Shown in pieces: positions 19,092-27,528 of a stretch of 43,710 bases of DNA. The notes beneath the pieces are model-generated. The model was given only the letters and a program-made list of their open reading frames with translations, made no database searches and was not told the DNA's origin. Source of the DNA: Sulfurimonas sp. Its GTDB lineage: Bacteria; Campylobacterota; Campylobacteria; Campylobacterales; Sulfurimonadaceae. Position numbers and translations under genes: made by a program. Position 1 is the first letter of the stretch, and every line of letters begins with the position of its first letter. The stretch is taken from NCBI GenBank assembly GCA_027071075.1, contig JALSUU010000026.1, forward strand, positions 1-43,710. Direction: 5' to 3'.

Positions 19092-20030
19092 ATGACAAAA
19101 AAATTACTACTAAGTACAGTTGCAGCCTTAGCTCTAACTACAAGTTTATCTGCGGATTTTAGTTTCGGTGATATGTTCAAAGACATGAAAGATGGTATGA
19201 CTTCTATGAGTCATGATGCTAGAGATTCTGTTCAGTCTGGTGTTGATGGTGGTGTTGAAGTATCTAAGAGTGGTGAGCGTACTGTTACAAGTGTGAGTCA
19301 CGATGCAAAAGATAGTGCAATAAAATCAAGTGATGACCTTAAAACAAGTGAAATTGCTACTGTAAAATCTGGTTCAGATACAACGAGTGGTATCTCTAAA
19401 GATTTAAGAGACTCAACTATTGAAGTTGCTGAGGACTCTAAAGACTCTGTATCAAATACAACAAGAGATCTTAAAGATAGTTCAACTATGGCAACAAAAG
19501 ACTTTAAAGATTCAGCAGTTACAGTTTCACATGATGTAAATGATGCAACTAAAAATACATCAAACAATATGAATGACTCTACAAAGACTATCTCTAACAA
19601 CATTAATGACTCTGCGAAGACAACTTCAAATAATATGAATGACTCTACCAAGACAATTTCAAATAACATTAATGACTCTGCGAAGACAACTTCAAATAAC
19701 TTGAATGATAGTACAAAAACTACATCAAACAATATGAATGACTCTACAAAGACTATCTCTAACAATATCAACGACTCTGCGAAGACGACTTCAAATAATA
19801 TGAATGACTCTACTAAGACAATTTCAAACAATGCAAATGATAGCACAAAAACTATCTCTAACAATGCAAATGATAGCACAAAAACTATCTCTAACAATGC
19901 AAACGATAGCACTAAAACAGTTTCAAACAATGCAAATGATTCAACAAAGTCAGTTTCAAATAACATCAACTCTGATGATTACCAAGACTACTTAAGATTA
20001 AAAGCAAAGTATGAGAAAGGTGGGCTCTAG
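19092..20030 (+). CDS. Secreted hendecad (11-residue) repeat protein
   Basis: Signal peptide MTKKLLLSTVAALALTTSLSA; about 12 near-identical SNN(M/I/A/L)NDS(T/A)KT(I/T/V) units in the C-terminal half, degenerate 11-mers upstream, unique C-terminus DDYQDYLRLKAKYEKGGL. Confidence 0.9.
   Translation: MTKKLLLSTVAALALTTSLSADFSFGDMFKDMKDGMTSMSHDARDSVQSGVDGGVEVSKSGERTVTSVSHDAKDSAIKSSDDLKTSEIATVKSGSDTTSGISKDLRDSTIEVAEDSKDSVSNTTRDLKDSSTMATKDFKDSAVTVSHDVNDATKNTSNNMNDSTKTISNNINDSAKTTSNNMNDSTKTISNNINDSAKTTSNNLNDSTKTTSNNMNDSTKTISNNINDSAKTTSNNMNDSTKTISNNANDSTKTISNNANDSTKTISNNANDSTKTVSNNANDSTKSVSNNINSDDYQDYLRLKAKYEKGGL
19557..19965 (+). repeat. 33-bp tandem repeat array (11-aa units) with a 165-bp higher-order duplication
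   Basis: 33-bp units such as aacaatgcaaatgatagcacaaaaactatctct (two consecutive identical copies). The segment starting acatcaaacaatatgaatgactctacaaagactatctctaacaa occurs at 19557 and again at 19722, 165 bp = 5 units apart. Confidence 0.9.
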
Positions 20031-20234: not shown

Positions 20235-20267
20235 ACAAAATAGGCTTGTATAAACAAACTATTTTGT
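20235..20267 (-). terminator. Candidate hairpin terminator at the 3' end of the split RND operon
   Basis: 9-bp inverted repeat ACAAAATAG/CTATTTTGT flanking the stop codon of the downstream RND half-gene; U tract weak. Confidence 0.4.
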
Positions 20268-22043
20268 AGGATTACCGTGATGTATTTCGGGTGGAACCTC
20301 TGTGACATCCATATGCTCTTCATCTTTTCCTTCTCCCTCTTTACAAATCATACCACCATTTTGAGGACAAATCGCATCTACTTTTGCCATTAGTACAGGT
20401 ATATAAAAAAGAGAGACAGCTGTTGATGCCATACTTCCAAAAATTAGAGCAATACCAAGACCACCGAAGATAGGATCTGTTGCGAGTAAGAGTGAGCCTA
20501 ATATAATTGCAACAGCAGTAAGCATAATCGGCTTAGAGCGTGTTGCTGTAGAGATTGCTATGGCACGATTTTTTTCTATACCACTCTCAATCAAAGACTT
20601 TGTAAAGTCTATAAGGAGTAGAGAACTTCTTGCACTAATTCCCATCAATGAGATAAATCCTATAAGAGAAGTTGCGGTAAGATAAAAATGCACTCCAGTG
20701 ATAAAGTGTAAAAATACAATATCAGTAATGTAGTGCCCAATAATAACACCGATGATGGATAAAAAGCTCCCCATAAGGACTATTCCACTTAAGGCAAAAG
20801 ATTTATAGTAAACAACCATCAATAGAAACATTAAAACAAGTGCAGAGATAAAAGCACCGCCAAGATCTCTAAAGGTATCAAGTGAGACTTTCATCTCACC
20901 ATCCCATCTCACAAGTATTTTTTCTCCTGTTTTCTTATGAACTAGAGCAAGGTCAAACATGTAAGTACTCGCTCCAGTAAGTCGCTTTACTTCAAAATCT
21001 TTCTCAAGCTTTTTTATTAGTATCTCTCTTGCGTCCATCAAAGGATAGACTTGAGAGACTAAATCACATTCAGCAGTTATAGAGACCTTATTATGCATAT
21101 TTTTCTTAAAAATAGTTGGATCAGCTACCGTCTCTTTAATATCTACAACCTCTCGAACAGGCACCATTATCCCTTGTTTATTTAGTAGCTTTAGCCGAGA
21201 GAGTTTTAACTCTAAATCCATTTTACTTGCTTCTTTAAGTGTCCGTGTTTTCTTATCTAAAGAGACAAAAATTGGAATTTGATCTTGTTGTTGTATAGAG
21301 TTTTTTGTAGCGACCACACTCCCTTTAAAAGCCATGTAAAGTATTTTACTTACCTGATCTACTCCAAGACTTGAATTTATAATTTTTTCCACATTTGGGA
21401 TAATCTCATATTTTGTATAAATATCATCTTGCATAATATCTATATCTACTAATCCCTCTGTCTCTTTAAATGATTGTTCTACTGTGTGTGATGTTTGTCT
21501 TAAAAGAAGAGTATCTTTTCCGTAGAGATTTACAACTATTGTAGCAAAAGTTGGAGGACCGGAGGGCATCTCTACAAATTTTATTGATGTATCTTTATAA
21601 AGATGTTCACACTGGTTTTGAATTACTGGACGAAGTCTATGAACCATCATATAAGATGGCTCGTCTCGTTCATGTTTATCTGTTAGATTTATAACCATTT
21701 CTGCTTGATTTTTCAGTGACTTAAATGCACTCCCTTTCACGAGCCCTGCATAATCAAGTGGAGCACCTTGCCCTAAAAATATCTCTATATTTTTAATAGA
21801 TTCTTCTTGTTTTAAAACTTTTGCCACACACTCTGTAACTTCTCTTGTTTGCTTAATAGTTGAATTTGTAGCAGTGTCAACATAGATACTATAAGTGTTC
21901 GCACTCTTTCCTGGGAGCATTTTTGCTAAAACCATTTTTGTTGGTATCATGGCTATAGCAAAGATTAAAAAACCTAAAACTATAAAACCTACTTTTCTTT
22001 GTGCTTTTTTGGAACTTACAATTTTATATATTCTCTCTTCCAT
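20259..22043 (-). CDS. RND (AcrB-family) permease, C-terminal half
   Basis: TM7 followed by porter-like domain and TM block with SLMGISARSSLLLIDF and RSKPIMLTAVAIILG motifs of the AcrB C-terminal half. Own SD (AAAGGGA) before ATG at 22043. Confidence 0.85.
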   Translation of the reverse strand: MEERIYKIVSSKKAQRKVGFIVLGFLIFAIAMIPTKMVLAKMLPGKSANTYSIYVDTATNSTIKQTREVTECVAKVLKQEESIKNIEIFLGQGAPLDYAGLVKGSAFKSLKNQAEMVINLTDKHERDEPSYMMVHRLRPVIQNQCEHLYKDTSIKFVEMPSGPPTFATIVVNLYGKDTLLLRQTSHTVEQSFKETEGLVDIDIMQDDIYTKYEIIPNVEKIINSSLGVDQVSKILYMAFKGSVVATKNSIQQQDQIPIFVSLDKKTRTLKEASKMDLELKLSRLKLLNKQGIMVPVREVVDIKETVADPTIFKKNMHNKVSITAECDLVSQVYPLMDAREILIKKLEKDFEVKRLTGASTYMFDLALVHKKTGEKILVRWDGEMKVSLDTFRDLGGAFISALVLMFLLMVVYYKSFALSGIVLMGSFLSIIGVIIGHYITDIVFLHFITGVHFYLTATSLIGFISLMGISARSSLLLIDFTKSLIESGIEKNRAIAISTATRSKPIMLTAVAIILGSLLLATDPIFGGLGIALIFGSMASTAVSLFYIPVLMAKVDAICPQNGGMICKEGEGKDEEHMDVTEVPPEIHHGNPTK

Positions 22044-23626
22044 TAATGCGTCCCTTTAGAGCGTTTTATCAGTTTTCGAGCTAAAAATGGTGCAAATACA
22101 TAGGCTACAAAGAGTGATACAGCCAAAGCAACAGGTACATTAAGCGGTATTGGTAGCATAAACTGTCCCATCATACCACCAACAAAAGCCATTGGAATCA
22201 TGGTAAGCATAATGGCAATAGTTGCAATATTTGTGGAAGGACCTATCTCATCAGTTGCTTCGATGACTATTCTGTCAAAACTATGATGTTGAGTCTCTTT
22301 TAAGTGCATACGCCTATGAATATTTTCAATCACAATAATAGCGTCATCAACAATGAGACCCAAAGAGAGCAAGAAAGCAAAGAGCGTAATACGGTTGATA
22401 GTTTGATCGGTTAAAAAAGCGATGAAAAGAGTAGCCGCTAAAATCATAGGTACTGCAATAGTTACAACCAAAGACTCTCTCCAGCCTAAAAATGGGATAA
22501 GTATAAAAGAGATAATAGCAATAGTCAGAACTAAGTGATGGACAAGTTCATTTACAGCCTCATTTGCGCGTTCACCATAATTTCGAGTTATTATATATCC
22601 TAGTCCAAATTTTTCCAATGCATCATTGTTTTCTTCTAAGGTTTTGATTACTTTTTCTGCAAGATGAACAGCATTTGTCCCCTTAAGTTTTGAAATAGTC
22701 ATCGTTACTTGATCTTCATTTTGAGAGAAAGGTTGCCCATCGGCTTTGTAAGAGATAAGGGCTTCTTGAAAGTTTTGAATATCATAAAAGTATTCAACTT
22801 TTGCAAGGTCTTTGAGGTAAATGAGTGAACCCATATATTTTGCAATTATTAAGTTTTGTAAATCTTCTATAGAGTTTATTGCATTCTTTACCCCAAAAAC
22901 AACTAAACGATTGTTTTCTGTTGGCAAATCCACCTCAGGAGCATTTTTAGCAATAGCCTGTATCGAGTGAACAACTTGACCTATGGAGATATGATATGCA
23001 GAGAGTTTATCCAAATCGAGTAAAACATTAAACTGTGGATGCTTTGCACCCTTAAGTGTTGTTTTTGAGATATCTTCAATGGCATTGATATCTTGCTGAA
23101 TATCTTTTATCAGCTTATAGAGTTTAATATGATCAATCCCTAAATCTTTTTTCTTATAAAAAGCAACAGTTACAATAGGAACATCTATATCTATATCAAA
23201 AGGCTTCACAATTGGCATCATCGCCCCATCTGGAGTTGAGTCCATATTTTGCATCACTTTATCATAAAGTTTTAGATTTGAGCTCTCTCTATCTTCGCCT
23301 ATTTTATACTGAACATTGAGCATACCTACATTATTCATCGCAGTAGAGTAGATATCTTTGACACCCTTTATCTCACTGATGCGTCGCTCAAGAGGTTTTA
23401 GGATGGCATTATTTATCTCATCAGGAGATGCTCCTGGCATTGGTACTATGATAGAACCACCACTTACCGCAATTTGAGGATCCTCTTCACGAGGCATAAC
23501 CTCTAAAGAGATATATCCAAGTGCTAAAATAGCAAAGGCTAAAATAGCAGTTAGAGGATTATTTAAAAAATTTCTTGCAAGAATACCTGCAATATTATGT
23601 AATTTGAGTTCAGAATTATCAGCCAT
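22043..23626 (-). CDS. RND (AcrB-family) permease, N-terminal half
   Basis: NPLTAILAFAILALGYISLEVMPREEDPQ start and LSLGLIVDDAIIVIENI motif (TM4 region); ends after the sixth TM at ARKLIKRSKGTH. TAATG stop/start overlap with the C-terminal half. Confidence 0.87.
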   Translation of the reverse strand: MADNSELKLHNIAGILARNFLNNPLTAILAFAILALGYISLEVMPREEDPQIAVSGGSIIVPMPGASPDEINNAILKPLERRISEIKGVKDIYSTAMNNVGMLNVQYKIGEDRESSNLKLYDKVMQNMDSTPDGAMMPIVKPFDIDIDVPIVTVAFYKKKDLGIDHIKLYKLIKDIQQDINAIEDISKTTLKGAKHPQFNVLLDLDKLSAYHISIGQVVHSIQAIAKNAPEVDLPTENNRLVVFGVKNAINSIEDLQNLIIAKYMGSLIYLKDLAKVEYFYDIQNFQEALISYKADGQPFSQNEDQVTMTISKLKGTNAVHLAEKVIKTLEENNDALEKFGLGYIITRNYGERANEAVNELVHHLVLTIAIISFILIPFLGWRESLVVTIAVPMILAATLFIAFLTDQTINRITLFAFLLSLGLIVDDAIIVIENIHRRMHLKETQHHSFDRIVIEATDEIGPSTNIATIAIMLTMIPMAFVGGMMGQFMLPIPLNVPVALAVSLFVAYVFAPFLARKLIKRSKGTH

Positions 23627-24490: not shown

Positions 24491-24512
24491 ATAGGGTACA
24501 ATTTTACCCTAT
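24491..24512. promoter_or_regulatory. 8-bp inverted repeat ATAGGGTA-caattt-TACCCTAT upstream of the stator-like operon
   Basis: Perfect 8-bp arms, 6-nt spacer, ending 18 bp before the ATG at 24531; contains TACAAT (24497-24502), a possible -10 element. Confidence 0.45.
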
Positions 24513-24530
24513 TAAATGAGAGGATGAGCA

Positions 24531-25628
24531 ATGCCACAAAACAAAAAATCCCCCCTATGTTTCGCTAACTTTATAGTTATCACACTTATCCCTATAAGTT
24601 TTTTCATCACAATGATTTTTGGATACCTAGGCGTTATTCCTCTGCATGTACCTGTTCACTCACTCGGTGTCATTGGTTTCATACTTTTTATCTTTTTACT
24701 TTTTACAAAACACAATGCGAACTACTCCGTATGTAATATGCGAGCAACACTTACAGATCTTGAAAGCGCTTTAGAGACAGAGTTACAAAAAAACTCTCTA
24801 AGTATAGATAATGAAGCAAAATCTATTTTAGATATTAAAAAATTTCTAAACCAATACTATAAAGATGTGAGAAATGATAACTTTGTCTCTGTTGCATCAT
24901 CTATCTTCCCTATGCTTGGAATTTTAGGAACTTTTGTTGCCATTGCTATCTCTATGCCTAACTTTTCGGTAACCGATACCGAAGCACTTGACCATGAAAT
25001 ATCACTTCTTTTAAGTGGCGTTGGCTCTGCCTTTTTTGCATCAATCTATGGAATCCTTCTCTCTCTTATCTGGACCTACTTTGAAAAAAGAGGACTGAGT
25101 AAAATAGATTTCTACTTCTCTTCTATCATTGCCGACTTTAGCGCACTTGTTTGGAGTCAAGAAGAGCTTACTATTCATAAGTATGTACAACACGATATTC
25201 AAGAGAATAAGTTTATTGATGCACTTAAAGAGACTTTTAATATTCACTTTTTAAAAGAGATAAACGAACAACACCTCGCTAATTTTGCACTTATCTCAGG
25301 GAACCTACAAGAGAGTTCCAAAGAGCTCCAAAAAGCACTCCATGAAATGGATAGAAGTACTTCAGCACTTGATGCACAAAACAACATCAATCAAGTCATA
25401 TCTGAGTTTACTCAAGCAACACACTCTTTTGAGAAGACTACAAAAGTTTTTAGTGCACAACTCAACAACTCTCTTAACCGTACCTTTGAGAAGATAGATA
25501 CAGAAGTGGGTGAGATAGTGATAAAGCTTGCAGACTTTGCAACACATGTCTCTCAAGAGAGTAAAGAGGTTCAAGATTCTATATCAAAGTACCACAATAT
25601 GGTTGCAAACCATGTCAAAATCAAGTAG
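24531..25628 (+). CDS. MotA/TolQ/ExbB-family proton channel subunit (non-flagellar, ZorA-like layout)
   Basis: Two N-terminal TMs, cytoplasmic segment, then FVSVASSIFPMLGILGTFVAIAISMPNF and LLSGVGSAFFASIYGILLSLIWTYFEKR (TM3/TM4 signature of MotA/ExbB), followed by a roughly 170-aa helical cytoplasmic tail. Confidence 0.88.
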   Translation: MPQNKKSPLCFANFIVITLIPISFFITMIFGYLGVIPLHVPVHSLGVIGFILFIFLLFTKHNANYSVCNMRATLTDLESALETELQKNSLSIDNEAKSILDIKKFLNQYYKDVRNDNFVSVASSIFPMLGILGTFVAIAISMPNFSVTDTEALDHEISLLLSGVGSAFFASIYGILLSLIWTYFEKRGLSKIDFYFSSIIADFSALVWSQEELTIHKYVQHDIQENKFIDALKETFNIHFLKEINEQHLANFALISGNLQESSKELQKALHEMDRSTSALDAQNNINQVISEFTQATHSFEKTTKVFSAQLNNSLNRTFEKIDTEVGEIVIKLADFATHVSQESKEVQDSISKYHNMVANHVKIK

Positions 25629-25636
25629 AAAAAGTA

Positions 25637-26752
25637 ATGTTTTACAACAATAAAAAGAATGAAGAGACAAACTTTTGGCTCTCTTATGCCGATTTGATGG
25701 CTGGACTCCTCTTTGTATTTATTCTCTTAATCGGTGCTATTGTTGTAAAGTCTACTGTTTTAAAATCAAACCTAAACTCCAAAGAGAACTCTTTAGAAAA
25801 CTCTTTGAGTATGCTTCTGCTTCGTGACAAGGAGGTGCAAAAGCTCAAAAGGCTTTTGGCTCAAAGGAGTCAAGAACTAAATAGTACAAAAGATGCACTC
25901 CTTATCTCAAAAAATGCTTTTAAACTTAAAACGGAAGAGCTAGTAAACCTCAACAACATTCTGCTCTCTCAAAATATGAAAATAGATGACTTTAACAATA
26001 AAATCATTATTATGCAAAATTTACTCGATGAATCAAATGCAACACTTGCAGAAAAAAACAATAAACTTCAAAATTATAAAAACAAAGTTCTCATCCTTTC
26101 AAATAACCTTACCGCAAAAGAGGATACCCTCAAACTCAAAGATGAGAAGCTACTTACACTTTTGAGAACCATAGAAGCAAAAGAGACAAAGTATGATGCA
26201 CTGATAGCAAAGCTTCAAGCACAAAAAGCAAAAATTAAAAGTCTCACGGGCATAAAAATAAAAGTCATCGCTGAGCTAAAACAGAGTCTTGGAAAAAATG
26301 TAGAGATTGATACAAAGAGTGGTAGTATGCGTCTTAGCTCTAACATACTTTTTGATAAAGGGAGTGCAGAGCTGAAGGAGTCCTCTAAAAAAGAGCTTAA
26401 AAAAGTTTTTATAAACTATATAGGAGCACTTACCTCTAATAGAAACATAAAAGATCATATTGAGCGTATAGTCATAGAGGGTCATACAGATAGTGATGGT
26501 GGGTATCTTTTAAACCTTAACCTCTCACAAAAGAGGGCCTATGCTGTTATGAATTATCTTCTCACACTTGACTTTACTAAGAAAAACAAGATAAAGCCTC
26601 TTCTCGTTGCGAGTGGAAGATCTTATCTTGATGCAATCTATGACAAAGATGGCAAAGAGGATAAAGAGGCATCAAGAAGAATAGAGATAAAGTTCAGACT
26701 TAAAAATGATGATGCAATGAACCAAATAGAGAAGATACTCGACTATGAATAA
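25637..26752 (+). CDS. MotB/OmpA-family stator subunit with extended coiled coil
   Basis: N-terminal NFWLSYADLMAGLLFVFILLIGAIVV (MotB-like TM with ion-pathway Asp), about 150 aa of coiled coil, C-terminal OmpA domain (ILFDKGSAELKESSKKEL ... IVIEGHTDSDGG...NLNLSQKRAYAVMNYL...ASRRIEIKF). Confidence 0.88.
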   Translation: MFYNNKKNEETNFWLSYADLMAGLLFVFILLIGAIVVKSTVLKSNLNSKENSLENSLSMLLLRDKEVQKLKRLLAQRSQELNSTKDALLISKNAFKLKTEELVNLNNILLSQNMKIDDFNNKIIIMQNLLDESNATLAEKNNKLQNYKNKVLILSNNLTAKEDTLKLKDEKLLTLLRTIEAKETKYDALIAKLQAQKAKIKSLTGIKIKVIAELKQSLGKNVEIDTKSGSMRLSSNILFDKGSAELKESSKKELKKVFINYIGALTSNRNIKDHIERIVIEGHTDSDGGYLLNLNLSQKRAYAVMNYLLTLDFTKKNKIKPLLVASGRSYLDAIYDKDGKEDKEASRRIEIKFRLKNDDAMNQIEKILDYE

Positions 26753-26906
26753 CTTTGAGCCAAAGTATATCAAACTAGCTTCTTCATATCTCAGTGAGAA
26801 GCTGGGTCAATTACATATCTCTAAAGAGGAAACAATCGAAGAAGAGAGAGTAGAGAAAAAAGAGGTCTCAAGGTTTCAGAAGATTGTTGCAACTATTTTT
26901 AAATAA
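26745..26906 (+). CDS. Small 53-aa hypothetical protein translationally coupled to the OmpA-like gene
   Basis: Not in the ORF list. ATGAATAA overlap with the upstream stop; reads MNNFEPKYIKLASSYLSEKLGQLHISKEETIEEERVEKKEVSRFQKIVATIFK*. Confidence 0.6.
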   Translation: MNNFEPKYIKLASSYLSEKLGQLHISKEETIEEERVEKKEVSRFQKIVATIFK

Positions 26907-27528
26907 AAGTAAAAAGATACCCACCATCAATCTTTTTTAAAGCATATCTGTAGTAACCATCAAGTTCAATTACTACTCTATAGTAACCATCATGATTTCC
27001 AATTCTTACTTTTGTAATAACACTTTTTTTGTCTTTAATCTTCTTCTCATAACTACGAATAGTTATATCACGACTAAAATCACACACTATTCTATGTGGT
27101 TTTGTAAGTAAAAAGTTCCTCAAAAGTTTATCTTTTGTAAGTAGTTTTAACTCTTCTTTACCCTCAAGAAGTTCTATAAACTTCAGTTTCACTATCTCTT
27201 TAAAAAGTTTTTTTTCACTCTTTGTATCATCAAAAGGAGAAATATAACTCTGAGAAATAAAAATAGGGAGATGCCAATCTACGCTGTTGTGTAACTCAAT
27301 ACTCTTTTTTTCTATAGATCCATCAAGGTTTTTATAACTTACCGTAACACTCTTGATAACTCGAGCAGTTGAAGGAAGGGAGAGTGTTGCTCTTTGCAAA
27401 GGAGAGAGGTCTAACTTCTGGTTTGTAGTCAAGGGAGTATCTATCTCTCCCTCAGATGGGAAAAAAGGATTCTCTCTAGCACCAAGAGAGAGTAAACATA
27501 AGCACAAAACTACAAAAATTTTAATCAT
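26899..27528 (-). CDS. AMIN-domain periplasmic protein
   Basis: Signal peptide; C-terminal RIVCDFSRDITIRSYEKKIKDKKSVITKVRIGNHDGYYRVVIELDGYYRYALKKIDGGYLFTF matches the AMIN pattern. Downstream of the eno/DivIC block as in other Campylobacterota. Confidence 0.75.
   Translation of the reverse strand: MIKIFVVLCLCLLSLGARENPFFPSEGEIDTPLTTNQKLDLSPLQRATLSLPSTARVIKSVTVSYKNLDGSIEKKSIELHNSVDWHLPIFISQSYISPFDDTKSEKKLFKEIVKLKFIELLEGKEELKLLTKDKLLRNFLLTKPHRIVCDFSRDITIRSYEKKIKDKKSVITKVRIGNHDGYYRVVIELDGYYRYALKKIDGGYLFTFI

Follow-up and report, generated by a model that had tools for sequence, protein, structure and literature searches.

A stator pair with a Zorya-like core and a coupled micro-ORF, a candidate stand-alone envelope motor of Campylobacterota

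A stator pair and micro-ORF in Sulfurimonas

Two adjacent genes of Sulfurimonas sp. (GCA_027071075.1, contig JALSUU010000026.1), hereafter A and B, very probably encode a stand-alone motor of the Zorya-core type. With less assurance, we consider it probable that they form a ZorAB-type core within the MotA/ExbB-MotB superfamily, acting as an inner-membrane motor driven by ions that is independent of flagella, Tol and Zorya and may have an envelope role. The fullest reading, of an unrecognised, widely conserved Campylobacterota envelope motor that couples proton flow to the cell wall and has a dedicated cytoplasmic subunit of ~50 residues, is advanced tentatively, as a possibility that falls a little short of even. 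The window, that is, the whole 43,710-nt stretch of DNA that was analysed, contains the following features of the locus.

24515-24530, plus strand: operon leader, in which a GAGAGGA-type stretch resembling a ribosome-binding site precedes the A start codon (direct sequence reading)
24531-25628, plus strand: A subunit, 365 aa, with four TM helices, a beta-hairpin (89-98) in the cytoplasmic loop and a helical C-terminal tail, residues ~186-365 (Pfam, AF2 model)
25637-26752, plus strand: B subunit, 371 aa, with an N-terminal TM helix carrying SYADLMAG (Asp19), a proline-free coiled-coil stalk of ~170 aa and a C-terminal OmpA-like domain
26745-26906, plus strand: micro-ORF, 53 aa, overlapping the B stop by 8 nt (ATGAATAA), predicted to be all-helical, with an N-terminal F-E-P-K motif and a C-terminal amphipathic helix

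These three open reading frames had been proposed in a sequence-only reading of the same DNA, and their coordinates were borne out on reading of the window, as was the start of the micro-ORF inside the end of B. A and B are separated by 8 nt in the window, and the next gene after the micro-ORF, at 26899-27528, is convergent and encodes an AMIN-domain protein. A scan for promoters and terminators revealed nothing above chance.

Fold of the A subunit

Pfam MotA_ExbB (PF01618) matched A at 31.6 bits against a cut-off of 22.9, which places it in the MotA/TolQ/ExbB proton channel superfamily. The AF2 model, built from 93 homologues (pLDDT 80, pTM 0.56), has helices at residues 11-33, 42-59, 116-141 and 150-206, which fits a protein with four TM helices, and the last helix of the tail spans 280-364. 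The domain match and the modelled helices together agree with the earlier description of A as a four-TM MotA/ExbB-type subunit with a helical cytoplasmic tail.

The beta-hairpin of the model sits between TM2 and TM3 and resembles the beta-sheet in the stator domain that a survey of stators lists as unique to Zorya-type proteins (PMC12505986). When the model was compared with the PDB using Foldseek, ranks 1-6 were all ZorA chains (E 5e-05 to 7e-04), with TolQ and ExbB behind them, and ZorA was again the top match in a profile search with A. A thus combines a beta element in the cytoplasmic loop with ZorA as its nearest fold, as expected of a Zorya-type motor core, at TM-scores that are modest (0.45-0.50 by target length). 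Given these scores and the large rmsd, the likeness to ZorA is confined to the core; judged from the model, it is core similarity, not identity.

Stalk and OmpA-like domain of the B subunit

B matched Pfam OmpA at 48.5 bits (cut-off 27.2), and its match to MotB_plug was sub-threshold (18.0 vs 24). The stalk is ~170 residues long (median 171, range 52-259 among homologues), none of the 120 homologues has a proline in it, and its 3.5-residue periodicity in the window B is 0.126, compared with a maximum of 0.103 over 1000 shuffles. The OmpA match, the heptad period and the lack of proline all fit the MotB-type subunit with ion-path motif, long coiled coil and OmpA domain that had been read from the letters. 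If fully helical, the stalk would measure ~25 nm at most (170 x 0.15 nm).

Most copies of B retain the candidate peptidoglycan-binding Arg (LSxxRA), and one subgroup (group-2 B proteins) has Asn in place of the GHTD Asp, a substitution that may weaken or alter peptidoglycan binding there. B also resembles the PRK09039-type 'peptidoglycan-binding protein' (NCBIfam NF006542-NF006546) in having a TM helix, a long linker and an OmpA domain, and NF006543 aligned with residues 6-353. However, at 55.6 bits B fell well short of the cut-off of 305.

Conserved ion-path residues

The Asp of the SYADLM-type motif was present in 128/128 distinct B proteins, and the Thr of GILGTF (T134 in the window A) in 125/125 A proteins. 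The TM4 Ser (S171 in the window A) was found in all A copies with a recognisable motif, where it forms part of a hydrophobic-Ser pattern (Ala/Val/Ile-Ser). The aligned type II ZorA (8VVI) has Ala-Ser, a form described as proton-like (Mariano et al., PMC11890865), whereas Thr-Ser is seen in the type I ZorA with bound Na+ (8VVN). As the pattern in A matches the former and not the latter, protons are likely to be the ion of the A-B pair.

Distribution and inheritance of the pair

A sample of 399 order genomes had orthologous A genes in 183 (32/87 genera), and a phylum sample had them in 129/249, counts that include a handful of weak, ZorA-like matches. Among the relatives of the locus that carry a name, Sulfurimonas and Sulfurovum genomes predominate; we infer the lineage names used beyond these, for example Sulfurovum-type and Campylobacter-type. 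In Sulfurimonas the pair adjoins AMIN, eno and recA. Many Sulfurimonas genomes are without it, and related ones keep the block with other genes at the site of the pair, which indicates that the pair is dispensable there. Its inheritance is therefore chromosomal, with loss or gain at one site, and in Campylobacterota the pair is a vertically inherited, ordinary chromosomal gene set. It was never present on plasmid records, where the matches were mainly proteins annotated as Zorya, or else partial OmpA and MotA-like proteins of other kinds. At one locus (L200; G473:C154) the A-B pair occurs twice in tandem, and the two copies have diverged.

In the Campylobacter-type family (f11), orthologous A and B genes follow nth, a peb4-like gene and fba, and precede a deaminase-like gene that overlaps B and stands where the window has the micro-ORF. 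We take this order to be Cj0595c-Cj0600 of Campylobacter jejuni, and A and B presumably to be Cj0598 and Cj0599, tags that were assigned by gene order and not from a named genome. The literature lists Cj0598 as a hypothetical protein of unknown function (PMC5841378). Our searches found no report on the function of Cj0598/Cj0599, nothing relevant on non-flagellar stators in Campylobacter, and no published study of the A-B-micro operon. Besides the flagellar, Tol and Ton motors, Campylobacterota, apparently including Campylobacter, probably possess one more ion-driven motor that has gone unstudied.

The micro-ORF is a conserved gene

An ORF of 38-75 aa starting between -46 and +10 nt from the B stop was found in 104 of 125 distinct loci, compared with 35 of 611 control genes (5.7%), and several of the loci counted as negative do have a micro-ORF with another start or size. 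The overlap with the B stop is 8, 11 or 14 nt in most loci. Outside the overlap, pN/pS was 0.10-0.47 in nine close pairs, which were chosen afterwards by low pN; the value pooled over all pairs (0.94) was uninformative due to saturated synonymous sites and poor distant alignments. The consensus consists of an N-terminal F-x-P/A-K-x-L/I-K-x-A, a charged linker and a C-terminal amphipathic stretch, and the terminal motifs are common across families. AF2 modelled the micro-protein as one helix (7-52, pLDDT 81), and no TM helix was evident in it.

That the micro-ORF is a chance frame at the 3' end of B, with only the A-B pair of importance, would agree with its absence from Campylobacter-type and g37 Arcobacter-like genomes, which keep A-B, and with the low sequence identity between distant copies. 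Its frequency relative to control genes, the pN/pS of the close pairs and the shared terminal motifs make this scarcely credible, and we reject it: as far as comparison of sequences goes, the micro-ORF is a real, conserved gene under purifying selection. Since it is missing from the Campylobacter-type and one Arcobacter-like lineage with the pair, at least some lineages do not need it for the motor. The distant micro-ORFs (group 2, g10) have the same position and architecture as the window copy, and homology was shown for part of them only. Conservation of both pair and micro-ORF, on which the sequence-only reading depended, was accordingly seen in the order genomes and loci counted above.

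Eight Sulfurimonas genomes without the pair gave no convincing match to the micro-ORF; two marginal matches (E 0.008 and 0.0096), both in one genome, lie inside long unrelated frames. The micro-protein was nowhere found fused to A or B, and the lone candidate, a long ORF at E 0.06, was not credible, being the A gene of another lineage (L181). The micro-protein represents a new small-protein family with an obvious partner.

Relation to flagellar, Tol, Ton and Zorya systems

The pair shares the MotA_ExbB domain, a MotB-like TM motif and an OmpA-like domain with flagellar MotAB and PomAB, and superfamily membership is what would suggest an accessory flagellar or surface-motility stator. However, the host genome has a separate MotA/MotB pair followed by FliP, as well as TolQR with TolB and ExbBD sets, so that A-B is an extra stator. 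No motility genes are near the pair in the window, and of the 51 pair-bearing genomes among 56 searched for FliG, 15 were without it (11 from the Sulfurovaceae-type family f6 and 4 from genus g10, all complete or near-complete). In a tree of the TM3-TM4 core, which bears on whether the pair falls inside flagellar motAB or Tol, the A proteins formed a clade of 58 tips, including three long-tailed paralogues, with a support of 0.88 and to the exclusion of ZorA2, MotA, TolQ and ExbB. The pair therefore neither co-occurs consistently with the flagellar rotor nor groups with MotA; we reject its identity as the flagellar stator and regard an accessory motility role as very improbable. That the pair is a Tol/Ton-like energiser, acting through the long stalk of B to move or stabilise the outer membrane, is rather unlikely. 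A coiled coil of this length could span the periplasm and B ends in an OmpA-like domain, but B is for this reason unlike TolR and ExbD, no conserved TonB/TolA-like third component adjoins the pair, the host owns canonical TolQR-TolB and ExbBD, and A groups outside TolQ and ExbB, leaving only the shared MotA/TolQ/ExbB superfamily. The Tol and Ton identities were rejected on the same grounds.

A further alternative is an anti-phage module, in which a ZorAB sensor motor recruits effectors encoded elsewhere or the micro-protein acts as the effector. It draws on the nearest solved relatives being ZorA and ZorB, on the patchy presence of the pair in Sulfurimonas and on the PADLOC ZorB1 model PDLC00609, which gave the window B 205 bits. 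The likeness to ZorAB of types I and II (8QYD, 8VVN, 8VVI) extends over the core fold, the beta element of the cytoplasmic loop, the ion-path Asp/Thr/Ser, the helical cytoplasmic tail and the OmpA-like C-terminus of B. However, all NCBIfam Zor cut-offs were missed by at least 3-fold: A reached 36.4 of 700 bits for ZorA2 and 33.8 of 100 for the lowest subfamily cut-off, and B 78.3 of 400 for ZorB1. With the PADLOC ZorA models A scored 60 bits, compared with 657 for a genuine Zorya II ZorA, and PDLC00609 is non-discriminating, as B homologues (~190-205 bits) and true ZorB2 score alike. No ZorC, ZorD or ZorE lies beside the pair, whose neighbours are housekeeping or lineage-specific genes; the earlier remark that these effectors and flagellar genes are missing there is correct for the window neighbourhood. 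The A tail is also shorter (~180 aa; by residue ranges in PMC11890865, type I has 461 and type II 279), the pair has a long proline-free B stalk and a micro-ORF partner, and its inheritance is syntenic and lineage-fixed, not that of defence islands. We consider phage defence quite unlikely, and full membership in Zorya was rejected, given the missed cut-offs, the lack of adjoining effectors and the absence from plasmids. The statement that this is not a recognisable Zorya system thus holds for the system, and fails for the motor core, which is closest to ZorA/ZorB by fold and profile. What stands is a stator pair that is neither flagellar nor Tol nor Zorya; it is conserved throughout the order, and the micro-ORF usually accompanies it.

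In 249 genomes of the order, ZorA2 was above the cut-off in none, and one genuine Zorya II was recovered with ZorE. The latter operon (L201; G300:C23) has ZorA, ZorB and ZorE that are all strong in PADLOC. In three loci of family f14 (L206, L208 and L211), a ZorA2-like A with open frames of ~800-930 aa lies directly downstream of exbB-exbD. PADLOC may over-call ZorB in Campylobacterota, and the score of the window B is a warning that ZorB profiles mark non-defence genes.

Proposed mechanism and genomic context

For the favoured stand-alone motor, homology suggests that five A subunits would surround two B helices (5:2). Protons would pass Asp19 of B against the ring of Thr134/Ser171 of A, turning A around the B dimer, and the OmpA-like domain at the far end of the coiled coil would hold B to the cell wall. 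The A tails would assemble into a short bundle, through which torque or a signal reaches the cytoplasm. Translationally coupled to B, the micro-protein would most likely be a small cytoplasmic subunit at the membrane surface, capping or regulating the A-tail bundle. If the fullest reading is true, Zorya would share its core with, or derive from, such housekeeping motors. The combination of a Zorya-like core with housekeeping-type inheritance bears on whether the Zorya motor originated from ordinary envelope machines.

No neighbours beyond A, B and the micro-ORF were conserved across lineages in the neighbourhood comparison. In ~18 related Sulfurovum-type loci, fabZ, lpxA, clpX, mreB, mreC, A, B and the micro-ORF lie on one strand, and mreC overlaps A by 4 nt in one of them (L104). 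The long-tailed paralogue (L053, L054 and L055; G107, G149 and G143), with an A of 592-615 aa, a short B of ~250 aa and no micro-ORF, follows ftsW, murG, DedA-like and bcp-like genes on the same strand in genomes that also hold the window-type pair. Based on these mreB-mreC and ftsW-murG operonic contexts, together with the OmpA-like end domain, a role in upkeep or sensing of the peptidoglycan envelope is preferred over phage defence, a preference we hold with rather low confidence. The pair's neighbourhood in most lineages is without a cell-wall gene (e.g., peb4-fba in the Campylobacter-type), so the proposed role rests on two contexts, one of them from a single Sulfurovum-type group. Little weight was given to the convergent neighbours, the AMIN gene in Sulfurimonas and YceG/MltG in some Sulfurovum.

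Two further features were observed upstream of the pair in the window. An RND-type transporter on the minus strand (20259-23626) is encoded as two consecutive ORFs of 527 and 594 aa; the arrangement repeats in relatives (clusters c7 and c6), which makes a genuine split more probable than a sequencing error. A secreted-looking protein of NNxNDSTKTxS repeats is encoded on the plus strand (19092-20030), and several relatives also have it close to the pair (cluster c17).
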